From Alphaproteobacteria bacterium (GTDB lineage Bacteria > Pseudomonadota > Alphaproteobacteria > Micropepsales > Micropepsaceae), in assembly GCA_947467345.1 (NCBI GenBank), contig CANIHD010000006.1, positions 62,001-126,000 of the forward strand: 64,000 bases of DNA, written 5' to 3'. The notes beneath the pieces were generated by a model. It saw nothing but the letters and a program-made list of their open reading frames with translations. It was not told the DNA's origin and did not search any database. Positions 6,514 to 46,367 of this stretch are shown piece by piece (the first letter of the stretch is position 1; each line of letters begins with the position of its first letter). A program made the position numbers and the translations under genes.

Positions 6514-6528
6514 GAACCAAAGTAGAAC
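6514..6528. promoter_or_regulatory. LexA operator (SOS box), GAAC-N7-GAAC
   Basis: GAAC CAAAGTA GAAC is a perfect match to the alphaproteobacterial LexA site, two GAAC (or GTTC) words spaced by seven bases. It lies 48 bases before the lexA start and 39 bases before the divergent VOC gene, so it can serve both. Autoregulation of lexA is established for the group. Confidence 0.88.
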
Positions 6529-6575: not shown

Positions 6576-7331
6576 ATGCTGACGAAGAAGCAATATGAGT
6601 TGCTGATGTTCATCCACGAGCGGGTGCGCGAATCCGGGGTTCCGCCGTCCTTCGACGAGATGAAAGACGCCCTCGACCTGAAATCCAAATCCGGCATCCA
6701 CCGACTGATCACCGCTCTCGAGGAGCGCGGCTACATTCGGCGCTTGGAGAAGCGCGCACGTGCCCTGGAAATCGTGCGCCTCCCCGACAACGCCGAAGGC
6801 GTGCGCCCCGCGGCCACGCGCATCCAAGCTCAGCGCCTTGCCAGCACCGCCATGCGCGGACGTGTGGAGCCCCGGCCTGAAAGCCGCATCCCCACGGATT
6901 CGCGCGCGGCCACTTCGGGACCGCGTCGAGCCAGCCAGGACAATGACGGATCGCTCTCCATTCCGCTGGTCGGGCGCATCGCCGCCGGCACGCCCATCGA
7001 GGCGCTGCAGAACCGCATGTCGGACATTTCGGTACCCGCCAGCCTTCTTTCCAGCGGCGAGCATTACGCGCTCGAAGTCACCGGCGATTCCATGATCAAT
7101 GCCGGCATATTGGATGGCGACACAGTCGTGATCCGCAAAGTCGAGTCGGCCAATAACGGCGACATCGTGGTGGCGCTGGTGGACGAAAACGAGGCCACGT
7201 TGAAGCGGCTTCGCCGGCGCGGCGATTCCATCGCATTAGAAGCCGCCAACCCGGCCTATGAAACGCGGCTCTATGGTTCGGACCGTGTGCGCATCCAGGG
7301 AACCTTGGTGGGCTTGATCCGGCGTTATTAG
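6576..7331 (+). CDS. lexA: LexA repressor, SOS regulator and self-cleaving protease
   Basis: LexA represses DNA-damage genes and cleaves itself when bound to RecA filaments. The 251-residue protein has an N-terminal winged helix ([40 protein letters not shown]), a long linker (about 70-125), and an S24 peptidase domain. The A137-G138 scissile bond (GRIAAGTP), S172 (GDSM) and K210 of the catalytic dyad are all present. The start was set at the ATG before LTKKQ, preceded by a GGGGGGG-AAGCG ribosome binding site. An upstream extension to 6510 would run through its own operator. Confidence 0.97.
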
Positions 7332-19456: not shown

Positions 19457-20128
19457 TTATTGTGCGGGCCTTGGCGCTGCAGGCGCTCCCGCCGGCGGCG
19501 TGGCCGAAAGCGCCACGTTCACTCTCGGCAATGCCTTATCGAGCGCAGTAATCGCTTGCGCGGTCACATCGACATCGATCGACGACAAGATCACGGCGTT
19601 CCGGTCGAGCACGAGATTGGCGCCGCGATCACGCATGATGTTTTGCAGAATCGGACCGAGCGCCGTGTCGAGCTGCTGGCCAGCGCGCGCGAAGCCGTTT
19701 TGAATGGCGGCCTGACGGTCTGTCACGCGCTTCTGAAACGCTTCCTGCTTGGTGGTGAATTGCTTCTGCTTGGCCAGCCGCGCATCCGCCGCCAGAATCG
19801 CCAATTGCTGTTGCAGGGCCGCTGCTTCTTTCTGCAAGGCCTCGGCTTGAGTCTTGAACTCGGTATCGGCTGCCGCAGAAAGAGCCTGCGTCTGGGTCAT
19901 CATCGTCTTGCCGGCCGCGGAGGCCCGAAGGATGACGTTGCGGTCGATCACGATGATCCGGGGAACCGGAGGTCCCGCCGGAGCCGCTGCCACCGGAGCG
20001 GGAGGACGAGCTGCCGTCCCTGGTGCCGCCGCCGGAACTTGCGCCGAACTGGCCGATCCGATCGAGAGAAGCACCGAGGACAGGATAGCAGCCGCCAACA
20101 GGGGCCGCTGGTAGCGTCGAGAAGTCAT
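19457..20128 (-). CDS. skp: OmpH/Skp family periplasmic chaperone
   Basis: Skp-type chaperones hold unfolded outer-membrane proteins on their way to BamA. The 223-residue protein has a basic n-region and signal peptide (MTSRRYQRPLLAAAILSS, cleavage near SASSAQ). A proline/alanine-rich stretch follows, then IIVIDRNVILRASAAGK, long coiled helices (about 85-150, with FKTQAEALQKEAAALQQQLA) and a C-terminal Pro/Ala tail. The ATG at 20128 has AAGG upstream; an ATG at 20149 overlapping the bamA stop is the alternative. It directly follows bamA, as is common. Confidence 0.9.
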   Translation of the reverse strand: MTSRRYQRPLLAAAILSSVLLSIGSASSAQVPAAAPGTAARPPAPVAAAPAGPPVPRIIVIDRNVILRASAAGKTMMTQTQALSAAADTEFKTQAEALQKEAAALQQQLAILAADARLAKQKQFTTKQEAFQKRVTDRQAAIQNGFARAGQQLDTALGPILQNIMRDRGANLVLDRNAVILSSIDVDVTAQAITALDKALPRVNVALSATPPAGAPAAPRPAQ

Positions 20129-38712: not shown

Positions 38713-41700
38713 TCACACCGTTTCCACCTCGGCAACGCCAGCCATGGCTTTGATCATCGATTTCAGCTGCGGGCTGACAGCCACGCGCTTGGGCAGCGAT
38801 ATCTCGACCTCTTGCGCGTTACCGGCCACCGGAACGACAAGCGTGATGAGACCCTTGCCGGGTTGACGCAATTGCGCCGCGATCTGCGGGATGGGCACCG
38901 GATCGGTCAGGAAAATGCGCAAGCCCTCGCCGGCGTTGGCCGCCGCGACATCCAAATTCTCCACCGAGATGGCGCGTAGTTTCAATTCGTCTTCGTTCCA
39001 ATCGCCGACCACGCGCATGATGACCGAAGCGCCGGGCTCAAGCTTGGTGCGCGCTTCGCGCAAGGCTTCGGCGAACAACATCACCTCGAACATGCCGGTG
39101 GGATCCGAGAGGCCGACAAAGGCGAAAGGATCGCCGCTTTTGCCGCGCCGTTCCTGCCGCCGGATCACCGTTCCTGCCAGCGTCGACTTCACGGCGGAAC
39201 GCCGCGTATCCGCCAAGAGATCGGCATAACGCTGCACGCCGAGGCGCTTCAGCGCTTGCGCATAAGAATCCAGCGGATGGCCGGAGAGGTAAAATCCGAT
39301 GGCGTTGAATTCTTCGGCGAGGCGTTCATGCGTCGGCCAATCATTGGTAGCGAGAAGCGGCAGCGTTTCGCGCGCCGGCTCGGCGGCGACGAACAGGCTG
39401 GATTGCCCGGCATCGCGGTCACGAATATGCCGCGCGGCATCGCCGAGCACGATATCGGCGGAATCGATCAGTTGCTTGCGGTTCTTGTGCAACCCATCGA
39501 AGGCCCCTGCCCGCACCAGGCTTTCAAAGGCGCGCTTGTTGACCAGGCGCGGATCGATGCGGCGCGCGAAATCGGCAATCGAGCGGAATGCGCCGCCCTC
39601 TTCGCGCACCATCACCAAATGGTCCATCGCCTGGCGGCCGACATTTTTCACCGCCGCCAGCGCGTAATAGATGACGCCGCCGCCGATGCCCGCATCGCAC
39701 GCAAAGAAAGCCTGGCTGCCGTTGATGTCCGGCGCGCGCACTTCGATGCCGAGCCGTGACGATTCCTGACGGAACACGTTCAGCCGGTCTGTACTGCCGA
39801 TATCGAGCGTCATTGACGCTGCCAAGAACTCGACCGGATAATTCGCTTTCAAAAATGCAGTTTGATAGGCGACCTGGGCGTAGGCTGCGGCGTGGCCTTT
39901 GTTAAAGCCATAGCCTGCGAATTTCGCCGCCTGTTCGAAAATCAGTTCGGCGACATTCTCGGCAACGCCTTTAGCTTCCGCGCCTTTGACGAATTTGTCG
40001 CGATGCGCCGCCATTTCGGAGGCGATCTTCTTGCCCATGGCGCGGCGCAAAAGATCGGCCTCGCCCAGCGAATAGCCGCCGAGTTCGCGCGCGATGCGCA
40101 TGACGTCTTCCTGATACGTCATCACGCCGAAGGTTTCGGAAAGGATCGGCTCCAGGCTGGGATGGAGGTAATCCGGCTTCTCGCGTCCGTGCTTGCAAGC
40201 GATGTATTTCGGGATCGAATCCATTGGGCCGGGGCGATAGAGCGCCACCAATGCGATCAGGTCGTTGATATGGTCGGGCCTGAGCTTGCGCATAAGATCG
40301 CGCATGCCCTGACTTTCCAGCTGGAACACGCCGACGCCATCGCCGCGCGCCAGCATTTCGAAGGTGGGTTTGTCTTCGAAATCGATACGCTGCGTATCGA
40401 GAATAATGCCGCGCTGCTTCAGCAGCGCTTCCGTCTTGGCGATGACGGTCAGCGTCTTCAGACCGAGAAAGTCGAATTTGACCAGACCGGCTTTTTCCGC
40501 GTCTTCATAATCGAACTGCGTCACCGGCATGACCGAACGGGGATCGCGGTAAAGCGGCACGATCTCGGCCAGCGGCCGGTCGCCGATCACGACGCCGGCC
40601 GGATGGGTGGAAGCGTGGCGGTAAAAGCCTTCGATCTTCTCGACGATGGCAAAGAGATCGCGAACCTTCTGTTCCTCATCCGCGATCTGCTGAAGGCGCG
40701 GTTCGCTTTCCACCGCCTCCTTCAAAGAGATGGATTTTCCCGGCGGATTGGGGATGAGCTTGGCCACGCGGTCGACAAGGCCGAGCGGCAATTGCAGCAC
40801 GCGCCCGACATCGCGCACTGCAGCGCGCGCCTGCAGCGAACCCAACGCGATGATGTGTCCGACGCGGTCGTGGCCATATTTGTCCTGCACATAATGGATG
40901 ACTTCGTCTCGCCGCTCCTGACAGAAATCGATATCGAAGTCGGGCATGGAAACGCGTTCGGGATTGAGGAAGCGCTCGAACAGCAATCCGAAACGCAAAG
41001 GATCAAGGTTGGTAATGTCGAGAGCCCAGGCGACCAGCGACGTCGCGCCAGACCCGCGCACGCCGACCGGAATGCCTTGCGCGCGGGTCCATTTCATGAA
41101 GTCCGAAACGATCAGATAATAGCCGGGGAAACCCATGCCGATGACGACATTGAGCTCGAATTCCAGCCGCGCCCAATAGGCTTTTTCCTCGGCATAAAGC
41201 CCGTGCTCGCCGAGGCGGCGCTTCAGACCAGCTGCCGCCTGGGCGCGCAATTCCGCGTCGGCTTCGAGGCCGGATTCCGGCACGAATTGCGGCAGGATGG
41301 GTTGCCGCTTCTTGGGCCGGAAGGCGCAGCGCCGCGCCACCTCCAACGTGTTCTCGATCGCTTCCGGCAAATCCGAAAACAGGGCGCGCATTTCCTCCGC
41401 GCTCTTGAAGCGGTGCTCGGGCGTCATGCGCCGCCGATCCTCGACGTCGACGAAAGTGCCCTCGGCGATACAGATCAGCGCGTCATGCGCCTCATACATA
41501 TTCGCGCGGCCGAAATGAACGTCGTTCGTGGCAACCAGCGGCAGGCCCTTAGCGTAAGCCATGTCGATCAGCTGGCTTTCAACCGCCGCCTCGTTGGGCC
41601 GGCCATGGCGCTGCAGCTCGACATAAAGCCGGTTGCCGAACATCTCGATAAGGCGGTCGAGCGCGGCTTCGGCGGCTTGCGGCTGGCCTTCGGCGAGGAG

Positions 41701-42153
41701 CCGGTTCACCGGCCCGTTCGCTCCGCCCGTCAAGGCGATCAGGCCTTCTGCATGCGCGGCCAGACGCGCCGCCGTAGCGTGTGGAAGATCGCCCGCCTCG
41801 ACTTCGAGAAAGGCGCTGGAGAGAAGCTGGGAGAGCTGGACATAGCCATCCTCGTCTTTCACCAGCAGCGCGATGGCGGGATAGGAACGGCGCGCCAATA
41901 TCGGCGCCGGCGCAGGGTCCAGATCAACCGTCAGTGTAACGCCGACAATCGGCTGCACGCCGGCCTTGGTGATCTCGTCGCAGATTTCATAGACGCCGAA
42001 GAGATTGTTGCTGTCGGTGACCGCCACCGCCGGCATGCGAATTTCGCGCGCCAGGCTCGCCACTTCCTTGGGCCGCACCGCGCCTTCCAGCAGCGAGTAG
42101 ATGCTGCGGACCCGCAAATGAACAAAACCGGCGTGGCCTTTGACGGCGCTCAT
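38713..42153 (-). CDS. dnaE: DNA polymerase III alpha subunit
   Basis: This is the replicative polymerase subunit, 1146 residues. In order: an N-terminal PHP domain (FVHLRVRSIYSLLEGAV), the polymerase core with the catalytic aspartates in MPDFDIDF, the fingers region (GYSLGEADLLRRAMGKK, GYGFNKGHAAAYAQVAYQTA), a helix-hairpin-helix and the C-terminal OB domain. The length and position next to lolD mark it as the housekeeping DnaE1, not the SOS mutagenic DnaE2. The 3' end converges with the molbindin gene. Confidence 0.97.
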   Translation of the reverse strand: MSAVKGHAGFVHLRVRSIYSLLEGAVRPKEVASLAREIRMPAVAVTDSNNLFGVYEICDEITKAGVQPIVGVTLTVDLDPAPAPILARRSYPAIALLVKDEDGYVQLSQLLSSAFLEVEAGDLPHATAARLAAHAEGLIALTGGANGPVNRLLAEGQPQAAEAALDRLIEMFGNRLYVELQRHGRPNEAAVESQLIDMAYAKGLPLVATNDVHFGRANMYEAHDALICIAEGTFVDVEDRRRMTPEHRFKSAEEMRALFSDLPEAIENTLEVARRCAFRPKKRQPILPQFVPESGLEADAELRAQAAAGLKRRLGEHGLYAEEKAYWARLEFELNVVIGMGFPGYYLIVSDFMKWTRAQGIPVGVRGSGATSLVAWALDITNLDPLRFGLLFERFLNPERVSMPDFDIDFCQERRDEVIHYVQDKYGHDRVGHIIALGSLQARAAVRDVGRVLQLPLGLVDRVAKLIPNPPGKSISLKEAVESEPRLQQIADEEQKVRDLFAIVEKIEGFYRHASTHPAGVVIGDRPLAEIVPLYRDPRSVMPVTQFDYEDAEKAGLVKFDFLGLKTLTVIAKTEALLKQRGIILDTQRIDFEDKPTFEMLARGDGVGVFQLESQGMRDLMRKLRPDHINDLIALVALYRPGPMDSIPKYIACKHGREKPDYLHPSLEPILSETFGVMTYQEDVMRIARELGGYSLGEADLLRRAMGKKIASEMAAHRDKFVKGAEAKGVAENVAELIFEQAAKFAGYGFNKGHAAAYAQVAYQTAFLKANYPVEFLAASMTLDIGSTDRLNVFRQESSRLGIEVRAPDINGSQAFFACDAGIGGGVIYYALAAVKNVGRQAMDHLVMVREEGGAFRSIADFARRIDPRLVNKRAFESLVRAGAFDGLHKNRKQLIDSADIVLGDAARHIRDRDAGQSSLFVAAEPARETLPLLATNDWPTHERLAEEFNAIGFYLSGHPLDSYAQALKRLGVQRYADLLADTRRSAVKSTLAGTVIRRQERRGKSGDPFAFVGLSDPTGMFEVMLFAEALREARTKLEPGASVIMRVVGDWNEDELKLRAISVENLDVAAANAGEGLRIFLTDPVPIPQIAAQLRQPGKGLITLVVPVAGNAQEVEISLPKRVAVSPQLKSMIKAMAGVAEVETV

Positions 42154-42364
42154 GAAAAACCCGTGGCGGACTCTGAAAGACAGTATCGGCGGCGACGCGT
42201 CTCCCCGCGACTCCTACCGAGAATGCTCCACAGGCTTCGCGCTCGAAAATATCGGCCCTCGCCCCGGCCGGCGGCGGCATTGGGCGAAAATGCGGCGAGC
42301 GACCAGTGCGAGGGTACGGCCCGACTTTCCCGGAGCTAAAGGAAAAGCCGGGCCAAAAACGGGT

Positions 42365-42466
42365 TCAGGTAGAGGCGACATCGCCCGCGATGGACAGCAC
42401 AAAGGCCGCCGCCACGAAGATCAGAAGGCTTACGCCCGCAACACATTCTTGAAGCCATATCGCCAT
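42365..42466 (-). CDS. sidA: 33-residue SOS-controlled membrane peptide, SidA-like
   Basis: The short frame begins MAIWLQECVAGVSLL and is almost entirely one transmembrane helix (about residues 8-28), ending GDVAST. It has a good ribosome binding site, GGGGAA six bases before the ATG. A perfect LexA box lies 26 bases upstream, overlapping a promoter. In Caulobacter, SidA is a 29-residue, LexA-controlled inner-membrane inhibitor of cell division that acts on FtsW/FtsN, and I recall it lying beside dnaE; I could not check this. Size, topology, regulation and place all agree. Sequence homology itself is not established here. Confidence 0.75.
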   Translation of the reverse strand: MAIWLQECVAGVSLLIFVAAAFVLSIAGDVAST

Positions 42467-42491
42467 GACACATTCCCCAGAGTGGACGCAT

Positions 42492-42506
42492 GTTCTACAT
42501 CCGTTC
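42492..42506. promoter_or_regulatory. LexA operator (SOS box), GTTC-N7-GTTC
   Basis: GTTC TACATCC GTTC is a perfect alphaproteobacterial LexA site, the second in the window. On the minus strand it covers the -10 region (TAGAAC, 42492-42497) and part of the spacer of a promoter whose -35 is TTGACC (42516-42521). It controls the 33-residue peptide, 26 bases downstream. Confidence 0.88.
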
Positions 42507-42544
42507 TCTTTGGGCGGTCAAGAACAAAACATGATCGAAGTGAA

Positions 42545-44362
42545 CTACCCACCCACGCAGGAAGCGAGGCCGAGGATTTTCTCGGTGTCGAAGACGATGG
42601 CGTCCTCGGCCGACCAGGCCACGAAGAGCTCGGGGCTGATCGCGTGGAAGGCGACCGGTCCTTCCGGGAAGCGCGCGATTTCCTCTTGGGTCCACTCACC
42701 CTTTTCATTTCGCGTCACGCGCAAGGCATAGCCGTATCCGGTTGGCCCATTGCTGATGAAAAGCGTGCCCGGCCCATCGCCCTCGCGCGGTGCCATCCGG
42801 CAGCATTCCCCGAATAGGGCAATGACGCCGCCTTTGATGGGCATGAGGCCGAGAACATTGGTGTCCTTCAGCGCCTGCGATTTCCCGCGTGTAGGCTTCC
42901 AGTACAACTGCCCGCCCCAGCGCCCGATATCAGTGCCGATCATTTCGCCGCCAGGCAATTCGCCTTGCGCGGCTATCGGAATGTGCGATCCGTCGCCCCA
43001 CAGCCCGCGCAGATCTTGCAGCTCCAAGCGCGGCTGGCGAAGCGGCGAGAAGCGCGTTCCACTCCAATCCCAACGTCCGCTTTGGCAGGCGTGGCGCGGT
43101 GTCAGAAAAAGCGGTCCCACTTCGAATGCATCATGCGGTGCCGCCTTGTCGTCCGGTTCGAATTGCGCCGTCATTTGCGACGGCCGGGCGATGCGCCCCT
43201 CCGGCGAGCGCAATGTAACGGCTACGGCGCGCGCGTAATTGCGGACATCGGGAAACCAATGCGCCTCGGCCACATGATCTAGCGCGGGTGCGGCGTCCTT
43301 AGCACCCAGCCAGCCGAGCGCGCGCGCAGAGGCCATCACCACGCGCCAATCGCGATCTTCCAGCCGCGCGATCAAATCCGGTATGGCGGGCGCATAGCCG
43401 ATAAAGCCCAGCATCGTCGCGCCATCAGCGCGGTCGAGCCCGTTGGGCGCCGAGAGAAACCGCGCGGCGAGGACATCGCCGTAGGGGCGCGCGGGCTCAT
43501 TATGCGAAGCGATCTGCTCGCGGCAGCCATCCCAGGCGCGATCCGCCAGCGAGGTATTGCGATCGCTGCGCAGCGGACAGGCGCGCACCAGTGGACCGAC
43601 CGGCGCAATTCCTTTCAGCACGACAATGGCGTTGACCGCAGCGGCCTGCAGCGCGGGATCCGCCTCCGACGTAAGTGGTAGTAAAGAGTCACGCACGGAG
43701 TCCGGCACGCCTTGCAGCGCGGAAAGCCCGCGCAACGCGGCGACGCGGTCGTCGACAGCGCGCGTGTTGTCGAGCGCAATGTTAAGCCAAGGCCCAAGTG
43801 GAATGTGATCGGCATCGTCGATCAGCTGGATGACGTAGGTTGCTTCAAGCCAGCCCGGATTTTTTAATCCCTCGAAGAGGTAGGGAAGCGCGCCGGCACC
43901 CATGCGCGCCAGCGGCTCGTCAGCGCCGAGCATGCCTTTGACGACCTGGTCAACAAGTGCGCGCTTCGCCGCCGGCGTGCCGATGGATGCCAGAGCCCAC
44001 GCGATATGTTCGCCTTCGCGCGTGTGAATGGCGCTTTGCAATGCCGGAATATCGGCATCGGTCAGGCCCTTCCAATGCCACAGAAGTTCGCCCGCCAAAT
44101 CTTTCCAGCCGGAATCGTCGCCCGATGCGCGCGCAAGAATTTCTTTGGTCGCCGCAGGGCCGAAACTTTGCAGATGCACGGCAATGGCGTCTAGATCGCT
44201 CCATTCGCGCAAGCGATAAACGGCGGGGCGGGTGTGCTCAAGAATCTGCATGCAGGCCGGCAGCGTCGCACACGCATCGAACTTACCGTCCTTCACCAGA
44301 GGCGCGGCAGGCGCGGACGACGCGAAAATGGCGAGAGCGGCTGCTGAAAACCAAAGGCGCAT
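42545..44362 (-). CDS. Secreted HEAT-repeat protein of unknown function
   Basis: The 605-residue protein has a signal peptide (RLWFSAAALAIFASSAPA). About 350 residues of alternating helical repeats of HEAT/PBS-lyase type follow (for example IPDLIARLEDRDWRVVMASARALGWLGAKDAAPAL). A C-terminal part with several Trp and Gly motifs (GRWGGQLYWKP, MIGTDIGRWGG) suggests a beta structure. Cysteine pairs (CATLPAC, ECCRMAP) may form disulfides in the periplasm. It is not part of the common alphaproteobacterial order at this place. The function is unknown; a scaffold role is typical of such repeats. Confidence 0.75.
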   Translation of the reverse strand: MRLWFSAAALAIFASSAPAAPLVKDGKFDACATLPACMQILEHTRPAVYRLREWSDLDAIAVHLQSFGPAATKEILARASGDDSGWKDLAGELLWHWKGLTDADIPALQSAIHTREGEHIAWALASIGTPAAKRALVDQVVKGMLGADEPLARMGAGALPYLFEGLKNPGWLEATYVIQLIDDADHIPLGPWLNIALDNTRAVDDRVAALRGLSALQGVPDSVRDSLLPLTSEADPALQAAAVNAIVVLKGIAPVGPLVRACPLRSDRNTSLADRAWDGCREQIASHNEPARPYGDVLAARFLSAPNGLDRADGATMLGFIGYAPAIPDLIARLEDRDWRVVMASARALGWLGAKDAAPALDHVAEAHWFPDVRNYARAVAVTLRSPEGRIARPSQMTAQFEPDDKAAPHDAFEVGPLFLTPRHACQSGRWDWSGTRFSPLRQPRLELQDLRGLWGDGSHIPIAAQGELPGGEMIGTDIGRWGGQLYWKPTRGKSQALKDTNVLGLMPIKGGVIALFGECCRMAPREGDGPGTLFISNGPTGYGYALRVTRNEKGEWTQEEIARFPEGPVAFHAISPELFVAWSAEDAIVFDTEKILGLASCVGG

Positions 44363-44413: not shown

Positions 44414-45112
44414 TTATAGGTCGGCGCGTTCGGCCAATTTGCCCTGGTTGAGCACCAAAGTGCGGTCCATTTTCCGGGTCAGGTCGTAATTGTGCGTTGC
44501 GATGAGGGCGCACAAGCCTTCGGAGCGCACCATCTCGATGAGCATCGCGAAGACGCCATCGGAGGTGTGGGGATCGAGATTACCAGTCGGTTCATCGGCC
44601 AAAAGAACTTTGGGCCGATTGGCCAAAGCGCGCGCGATGGCGACGCGCTGCTGCTCACCGCCGGAGAGCTGGCTTGGACGGTGCGTGAGGCGCTGGGACA
44701 AACCAACGGAACCGAGCAGCCGCCGCGCTTCCTTCAGCGCGCTTTGCCGGTCGTCGCCCGCGATACGGCGCGGCATGGCGACGTTTTCCTCGGCGGTGAA
44801 CTCGGGAAGCAGGTGATGCGCCTGATAGACGAAGCCGAGATGATCGCGCCGAATTTGCGTGCGCTCGCGCTCCGGTAATTTCGACGCCGGCTTTCCGGCA
44901 ATGAAGACTTCGCCGCTCGTGGGCGCTTCCAGCAATCCCGCAATATGTAGCAGAGAGGATTTGCCGGCGCCGGACGGCCCGACAAGCGCAACGATTTCGC
45001 CGCGCGAAATGGCAAGTGACACGCGGTCGAACACAAGAAGTTCGGCGGCGCCTTGTTTGTAGATACGCGTCACGTCTTCCAGGCGCAGCGCCGCGCCATT
45101 CGCCTCACTCAT
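44414..45112 (-). CDS. lolD: Lipoprotein-releasing ABC transporter ATPase LolD
   Basis: LolD powers release of outer-membrane lipoproteins from the inner membrane. The 232-residue ATPase has Walker A GPSGAGKSS, Q-loop VYQAHHLLPEF, signature LSGGEQQRVAIARAL, Walker B LLADEPTGNLD and the H-loop ATHNYDL. The ATG before SEANG overlaps the lolC stop by eight bases; the upstream open frame belongs inside lolC. Confidence 0.96.
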   Translation of the reverse strand: MSEANGAALRLEDVTRIYKQGAAELLVFDRVSLAISRGEIVALVGPSGAGKSSLLHIAGLLEAPTSGEVFIAGKPASKLPERERTQIRRDHLGFVYQAHHLLPEFTAEENVAMPRRIAGDDRQSALKEARRLLGSVGLSQRLTHRPSQLSGGEQQRVAIARALANRPKVLLADEPTGNLDPHTSDGVFAMLIEMVRSEGLCALIATHNYDLTRKMDRTLVLNQGKLAERADL

Positions 45113-46367
45113 AGCGAAGCGCCTCGACCGGATCGAGACGCGCGGCGCGCCAAGAAGGATAGAGCGTGGCAAGAAAGGAAAGCGTCAATGCCATGGCAAC
45201 AACGCCGGCAACTTCGTAGGGATCGACCTCGGCCGGAAGTCGGCTGAGATAATAGACCGCCGGATCGAACAGCCGAACGCCGAGCATCCACGACAGAGCC
45301 TGACGCACGGATTCGATATTGGCGCAGAAGACCATCGCCAGAATAAATCCGAGCAGAGTGCCGGTGACGCCCACGCTGGCGCCTGCGATGAAGAAGATAC
45401 GCATGATGGCGCCCTTGCTCGCGCCCATGGTGCGCATGATGGCGATGTCGGGCCCCTTCTCTTTCACCAGCATGATCAATCCGGAAATGACGTTCAGCGC
45501 CGCCACCAGAATGATCAATGTCAGGATCAGAAACATCGTCACGCGTTCGACCTGCAACGCATCGAACAGGCTGATGTTCAATTGCTGCCAATCGACCACG
45601 CGCGTCAGATCCCCGGAGGCCCGTAAAACCTGCCCGCGCATGGCCATAACCGTGTCGGGATTTTGCACCATCAGCATGATACCCTGCACCGTGTCGCCCG
45701 TGCCGAAATAGGCTTGTGCTTCCTCCAGCGGCATGAAGATGAAGCTGCGGTCATATTCGCTCATGCCGATCGAAAACAGACCGGCGATGCGATAGGTTTT
45801 TTGTCGTGGCGTCGTGCCGAACGGCGTGACATCGCCGCGTGGCGCCAGCAGCGTCACAGTCCCACCCGGCGACAGCCCCATCAACGCAGCGAGCCCCTGC
45901 CCGATGATGACGGAATCTCCGGCCGCGAAATCTGCCAAAGCTTCGGGTGTGAGGCTCGCAGCGACCTCGCGCTGAACTTTCAAATCATCGGCGCGAATGC
46001 CGCGCACCTGCGCCCCTTGCGCGCCTTGCGGCGTGCTGACCATCACCTGGCCTTCGATCACTGGTGTGGCGGTGACCACACCGGGGACCGCCTTCACCCG
46101 GGCCACGATCTCGTCAAAATCGGGAATCCCGCCGATTTGGCTTTGCACCACCATGTGCCCGTTTAGGCCGAGGATGCGGCCCAACAACTGCGCCCGGAAG
46201 CCGTTCATCACGCTCATCACGATGATCAGCACGGCGACGCCGAGTGCGATGCCGACAAGCGAGAATCCCGAGATCACCGAGATCAGGCTTTCCTGCCGTT
46301 TGGCGCGCAAGTAACGCCCGGCAATCATCCATTCGAAGGGGGAAAATGCGTGTGTGCTCTTGGCCAT
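45105..46367 (-). CDS. lolC: Lipoprotein-releasing ABC transporter permease LolC/LolE
   Basis: The 420-residue permease has the expected topology: one N-terminal helix (GFSLVGIALGVAVLIIVMSV), a large periplasmic domain (about 50-270) and three C-terminal helices with the FtsX-like core. The start FSPFEWMIAGRYLRAKRQES is typical. Many alphaproteobacteria have a single LolC/E-type (LolF-like) permease, which fits one gene here. It is translationally coupled to lolD. Confidence 0.95.
   Translation of the reverse strand: MAKSTHAFSPFEWMIAGRYLRAKRQESLISVISGFSLVGIALGVAVLIIVMSVMNGFRAQLLGRILGLNGHMVVQSQIGGIPDFDEIVARVKAVPGVVTATPVIEGQVMVSTPQGAQGAQVRGIRADDLKVQREVAASLTPEALADFAAGDSVIIGQGLAALMGLSPGGTVTLLAPRGDVTPFGTTPRQKTYRIAGLFSIGMSEYDRSFIFMPLEEAQAYFGTGDTVQGIMLMVQNPDTVMAMRGQVLRASGDLTRVVDWQQLNISLFDALQVERVTMFLILTLIILVAALNVISGLIMLVKEKGPDIAIMRTMGASKGAIMRIFFIAGASVGVTGTLLGFILAMVFCANIESVRQALSWMLGVRLFDPAVYYLSRLPAEVDPYEVAGVVAMALTLSFLATLYPSWRAARLDPVEALRYE

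Follow-up and report, generated by a model that had tools for sequence, protein, structure and literature searches.

A LexA-controlled 33-residue membrane peptide encoded before dnaE in a Micropepsaceae genome is probably a SidA-type division inhibitor

An unannotated gene for a 33-residue hydrophobic peptide lies before dnaE in the window, the whole stretch of 64,000 nucleotides of alphaproteobacterial DNA analysed here. We propose that this gene is the organism's sidA, and that its product is a LexA-repressed inner-membrane inhibitor of cell division. We put the probability of this reading at roughly 0.78. The evidence comes from the promoter of the gene, its conservation before dnaE and its relationship to SidA of Caulobacter.

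The gene is a 33-codon ATG-to-stop frame on the minus strand at 42365..42466 (read from 42466 to 42365), and orthologous frames are found in relatives. It encodes the peptide MAIWLQECVAGVSLLIFVAAAFVLSIAGDVAST. The first-pass annotation of this DNA had described a single-helix membrane peptide, and the product fits this description. Its hydropathy of 2.75 over 17 residues is that of one strongly hydrophobic helix, and AlphaFold2 predicts a single continuous helix at residues 3–32 (mean pLDDT 93.6). The peptide contains no Lys or Arg. The tiny frame itself stands as first described; its ribosome-binding site, which had been called good, is only fair. The site is GGGGAA at 42473..42478 on the minus strand, 6 nt 5′ of the ATG, and relatives have stronger sites (GGAGG or AGGAGG) at the same place. 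The peptide matches no family of Pfam or NCBIfam, and 17 peptides scanned against both libraries likewise gave no match. A 15-bp hairpin follows the stop codon (42317..42355, minus strand) and could mark a transcription end before dnaE; its z value is only −1.6, it has no T-run, and its sequence has no counterpart in the relatives examined.

A perfect LexA box overlapping a promoter had been claimed for this gene, and the letters agree. Both elements lie in the 78-bp gap 5′ of the frame. On the minus strand, the order is GATCATGTTTTGTTC, TTGACC, GCCCAAAGA, GAACGGATGTAGAAC, ATGCGTCCACTCTGGGGAATGTGTC and ATG, with the C preceding TTGACC common to the end of GATCATGTTTTGTTC. The perfect core GAACGGATGTAGAAC is at 42492..42506 (minus strand; GTTCTACATCCGTTC in forward-strand reading, pattern GAAC-N7-GAAC). 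It covers the −10 element (TAGAAC) of the putative promoter TTGACC–18 nt–TAGAAC at 42492..42521 (minus strand). A sigma-70 consensus scan called no promoter at this locus because TAGAAC lacks the final T. What points to a promoter is the kept geometry from TTGAC to the box, since TTGAC stands just 5′ of the box in most relatives. The sequence GATCATGTTTTGTTC at 42522..42536 (minus strand), which abuts the −35 element, is probably a second LexA operator. It has the opposite orientation and one mismatch in the eight core bases. Across genera g1 and g5, 13 of the 14 genomes have a second site with at most one mismatch, as do 2% of shuffles. The second LexA-like site is perfect in three genomes (G002, G029, and G140).

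The regulator itself is encoded in the window. The lexA gene at 6576..7331 (plus strand) is the only one in the genome. It has its own perfect LexA box, GAACCAAAGTAGAAC, at 6514..6528 (plus strand), with the same layout after TTGAC; the lexA and peptide promoters thus share one layout and have similar operators. In the window, lexA is 35 kb from dnaE, and the Caulobacter genes for LexA (CC1902) and DnaE (CC1926) are likewise near each other. SulA is an SOS-induced division inhibitor with the same proposed role, and its target is FtsZ. No match to its domain (PF03846) was obtained in the genome at E values up to 1, consistent with the suggestion that this organism has LexA and a damage checkpoint without SulA.

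To assess conservation, we used the dnaE upstream regions of 164 alphaproteobacterial genomes, 34 of them from the window's family and 30 from Caulobacteraceae, with most of the others picked by dnaE similarity. The sample is non-random: these two families are overrepresented, and one genome enters it twice. Of the 164 regions, 61 have a perfect box within 450 bp that points the same way, whereas 200 dinucleotide shuffles gave 1.3 such regions on average and never more than 5. The position and orientation of the box before dnaE are conserved, far from chance. A single-helix hydrophobic frame of 26–63 residues comes after the box in 57 genomes, usually with a Shine–Dalgarno site. Conservation of the frame before dnaE in relatives, a check proposed in the first-pass annotation, was thus found. 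Within the window's own family, 20 of the 34 genomes show the arrangement. Outside it, 10 of 68 families do so, namely Caulobacteraceae and 9 further ones. Some frames differ in length. One orthologue (L024, genome G005) has 63 residues, of which about 30 form a polar extension at the C-terminus. In family f9 (L067 and L086), about 15 residues are instead added at the N-terminus.

The peptides have a mean column identity of about 30% over 17 relatives. Among the alignable frames of genus g5, differences at codon positions 3:1:2 number 91:52:28, and in a second set, mostly from Caulobacteraceae, they number 84:30:7. The sequence pairs compared are not independent, so that chi-square values are only a guide. 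In the relatives, this pattern indicates a translated protein under constraint.

The Caulobacter genome was recognized by its CcrM, which is 100% identical to the chain in PDB 6pbd; we take this chain to be the Caulobacter protein. Its dnaE is preceded by the LexA box GAACATCTTGTGAAC and a 29-residue single-helix frame. SidA also has 29 residues and is LexA-controlled (PMC4211646, PMC12700426). From its length, LexA box, and place, the frame is very likely SidA (CCNA_02004). The location of sidA before dnaE, as given in the first-pass annotation, is therefore very likely right. All 30 Caulobacteraceae genomes have such a frame before dnaE, identified by the box or by the SidA model; 20 pass the strict filter, and the rest were found by a one-mismatch box or the SidA model.

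We compared profiles of three groups, namely the window's group (A3), SidA (A2), and a set from other families (A5). An alignment with SidA had been proposed at the outset, and the link that emerged runs through intermediate families. The direct comparison of A3 with A2 is not significant, as 45 of 200 column shuffles scored as well, although the best alignment is in the expected register. The matches of A5 with A3 (2.4e-6) and with A2 (4.8e-5) were equaled by 0 of 200 column shuffles each, and by 0 of 150 shuffles in which only the hydrophobic columns were moved. A5 was built from box-associated peptides, and the frames that it retrieved were excluded from its building. When the model from A5 only was run on 1625 frames upstream of dnaE, all hits down to an E value of about 1 were held-out peptides of SidA or the window's family. 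A model from A3 and A5 retrieves the Caulobacter frame at an E value of 0.0097. These comparisons link the window peptide to SidA as a homologue by way of the intermediate families, whereas the direct match would not suffice alone.

The resemblance to SidA of Caulobacter crescentus covers the place before dnaE, the LexA box over the promoter, a length of about 30 residues, and one membrane helix that follows a polar start in the same register. There are also differences. SidA begins with MIRVARES, whereas the window peptide is four residues longer and has no basic residues; the inverted second operator and the HEAT-repeat gene that separates lolD from the peptide are likewise unlike SidA. Topology and contacts may differ, because the basic N-terminus of SidA is missing. 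The points against the SidA reading include the non-significant direct match, the lack of Lys and Arg, the fair ribosome-binding site, and the absence of the gene from some genomes (genus g6, most of g4, and members of the window's own genus). As an alternative, the peptide might share its ancestor with SidA and be SOS-induced, but have another membrane partner (FtsI, FtsN, or other) or a reversed orientation. The absence of Lys and Arg, the low identity among the 17 relatives, and the non-significant direct match all speak of fast divergence and favor this alternative. However, the profile alignments keep their register, and the peptide has retained its length, place, and control; we regard a changed partner or orientation as unlikely.

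A function like that of TisB or DinQ was also considered. TisB is an SOS-controlled single-helix membrane peptide of the same size class. DinQ is also an SOS single-helix toxic peptide (PMC3567139). A peptide of this kind would lower the membrane potential and slow the whole cell instead of inhibiting division. Homology to SidA and the place shared with it argue against such a function. An Rfam scan of the peptide locus gave no credible antisense RNA or other RNA, with the limit that an undescribed RNA would escape it. We give this function only a slight chance.

The neighborhood of the gene bears on a further explanation. The conserved downstream neighbor dnaE, for the alpha subunit of DNA polymerase III, is at 38713..42153 on the minus strand, the same strand as the frame, and the gap between the two is 211 bp. 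Upstream are the HEAT-repeat protein gene (42545..44362) and a gene for a LolD-like ABC ATPase (44414..45172), both on the minus strand. Caulobacter and the relatives G001 and G002 have the order lolD–peptide–dnaE; the HEAT-repeat gene is absent from this position in the related loci tested. Long open frames also run antisense to dnaE or across the locus (39862–42339 and 42140–42817, plus strand), probably as an effect of G+C-rich codon use. The constant position before dnaE, the common strand, and the 211-bp gap could mean that the box controls dnaE and that the dnaE transcript simply carries the frame along, as a leader peptide or a passenger. Yet the peptide sequence is conserved and under amino-acid constraint. 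In two genomes of the window's genus (G003, locus L025, and G006, locus L027), dnaE follows lolD almost directly and neither the peptide nor the LexA box is present, and in Caulobacter sidA is an independent gene (PMC4211646). Control of dnaE with a passenger frame is quite improbable.

The peptide is also missing before dnaE in all of genus g6 and most of g4. A search for a moved copy in the relatives that lack the gene returned only weak fragments, most of them inside long frames. Such patchy loss is as expected of a dispensable checkpoint gene.

The box core alone was also considered as evidence and rejected. The window has four perfect LexA cores compared with 2.0 expected, two of which (at 20035 and 37193) are inside long open frames, and the genome has 78 compared with 58 for the backward control. 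Because the genome-wide count is close to chance level, the significance of the core by itself was dropped. The same count is the one point in favor of coincidence, with the hydrophobic frame and the box next to each other by accident. We consider this highly implausible, as it is contradicted by the box, orientation, spacing, start, and sequence kept across species and families.

We return to the reading of the gene as sidA. In the undamaged cell, LexA would occupy the operator over the −10 element and shut out RNA polymerase, and it probably would also occupy the second operator beside the −35 element. Upon DNA damage, RecA would trigger the self-cleavage of LexA and the promoter would open. 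This half of the mechanism, repression by LexA and release by damage, appears well supported by the promoter and its conservation. For the other half, we infer from Caulobacter SidA that the peptide would insert in the membrane and keep the septal wall-synthesis complex FtsW/FtsI/FtsN inactive, the mode described for SidA (PMC4211646). Division would then be delayed until repair is finished.

Other small inhibitors are comparable in part. DidA of Caulobacter crescentus is likewise a small single-helix membrane division inhibitor (PMC4211646). However, it has 71 residues, is induced by DriD rather than through LexA, and binds FtsN. In Gram-positive bacteria, YneA, SosA, and ChiZ are SOS-induced membrane inhibitors thought to act via FtsW on septal wall synthesis (PMC13396833). 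YneA carries a LysM domain, and the helix of SosA is extended; the window peptide has neither feature.

SidA is described only from Caulobacter in the SidA literature that we searched. The window gene appears, from sequence comparison, to belong to a SidA family of SOS division inhibitors that is wider than in that literature. We favor, with some reserve, the broader view that sidA is an old alphaproteobacterial SOS checkpoint gene. It would be carried in a lolD–sidA–dnaE cassette in about 11 of the sampled families, would have been repeatedly lost and missed by Pfam and NCBIfam, and would have diverged so far, as the lack of basic residues in the window's peptide illustrates, that the division machinery may now be contacted in a rewired way. 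The finding points to a gene overlooked by domain libraries, and it would offer a division checkpoint for lineages that have LexA and lack SulA. With its dozens of aligned sequences, the family would serve as a map of natural mutations in a 30-residue inhibitor of septal wall synthesis. The alignment shows which residues are kept and which genomes are without the gene, and it makes co-variation with FtsW testable.
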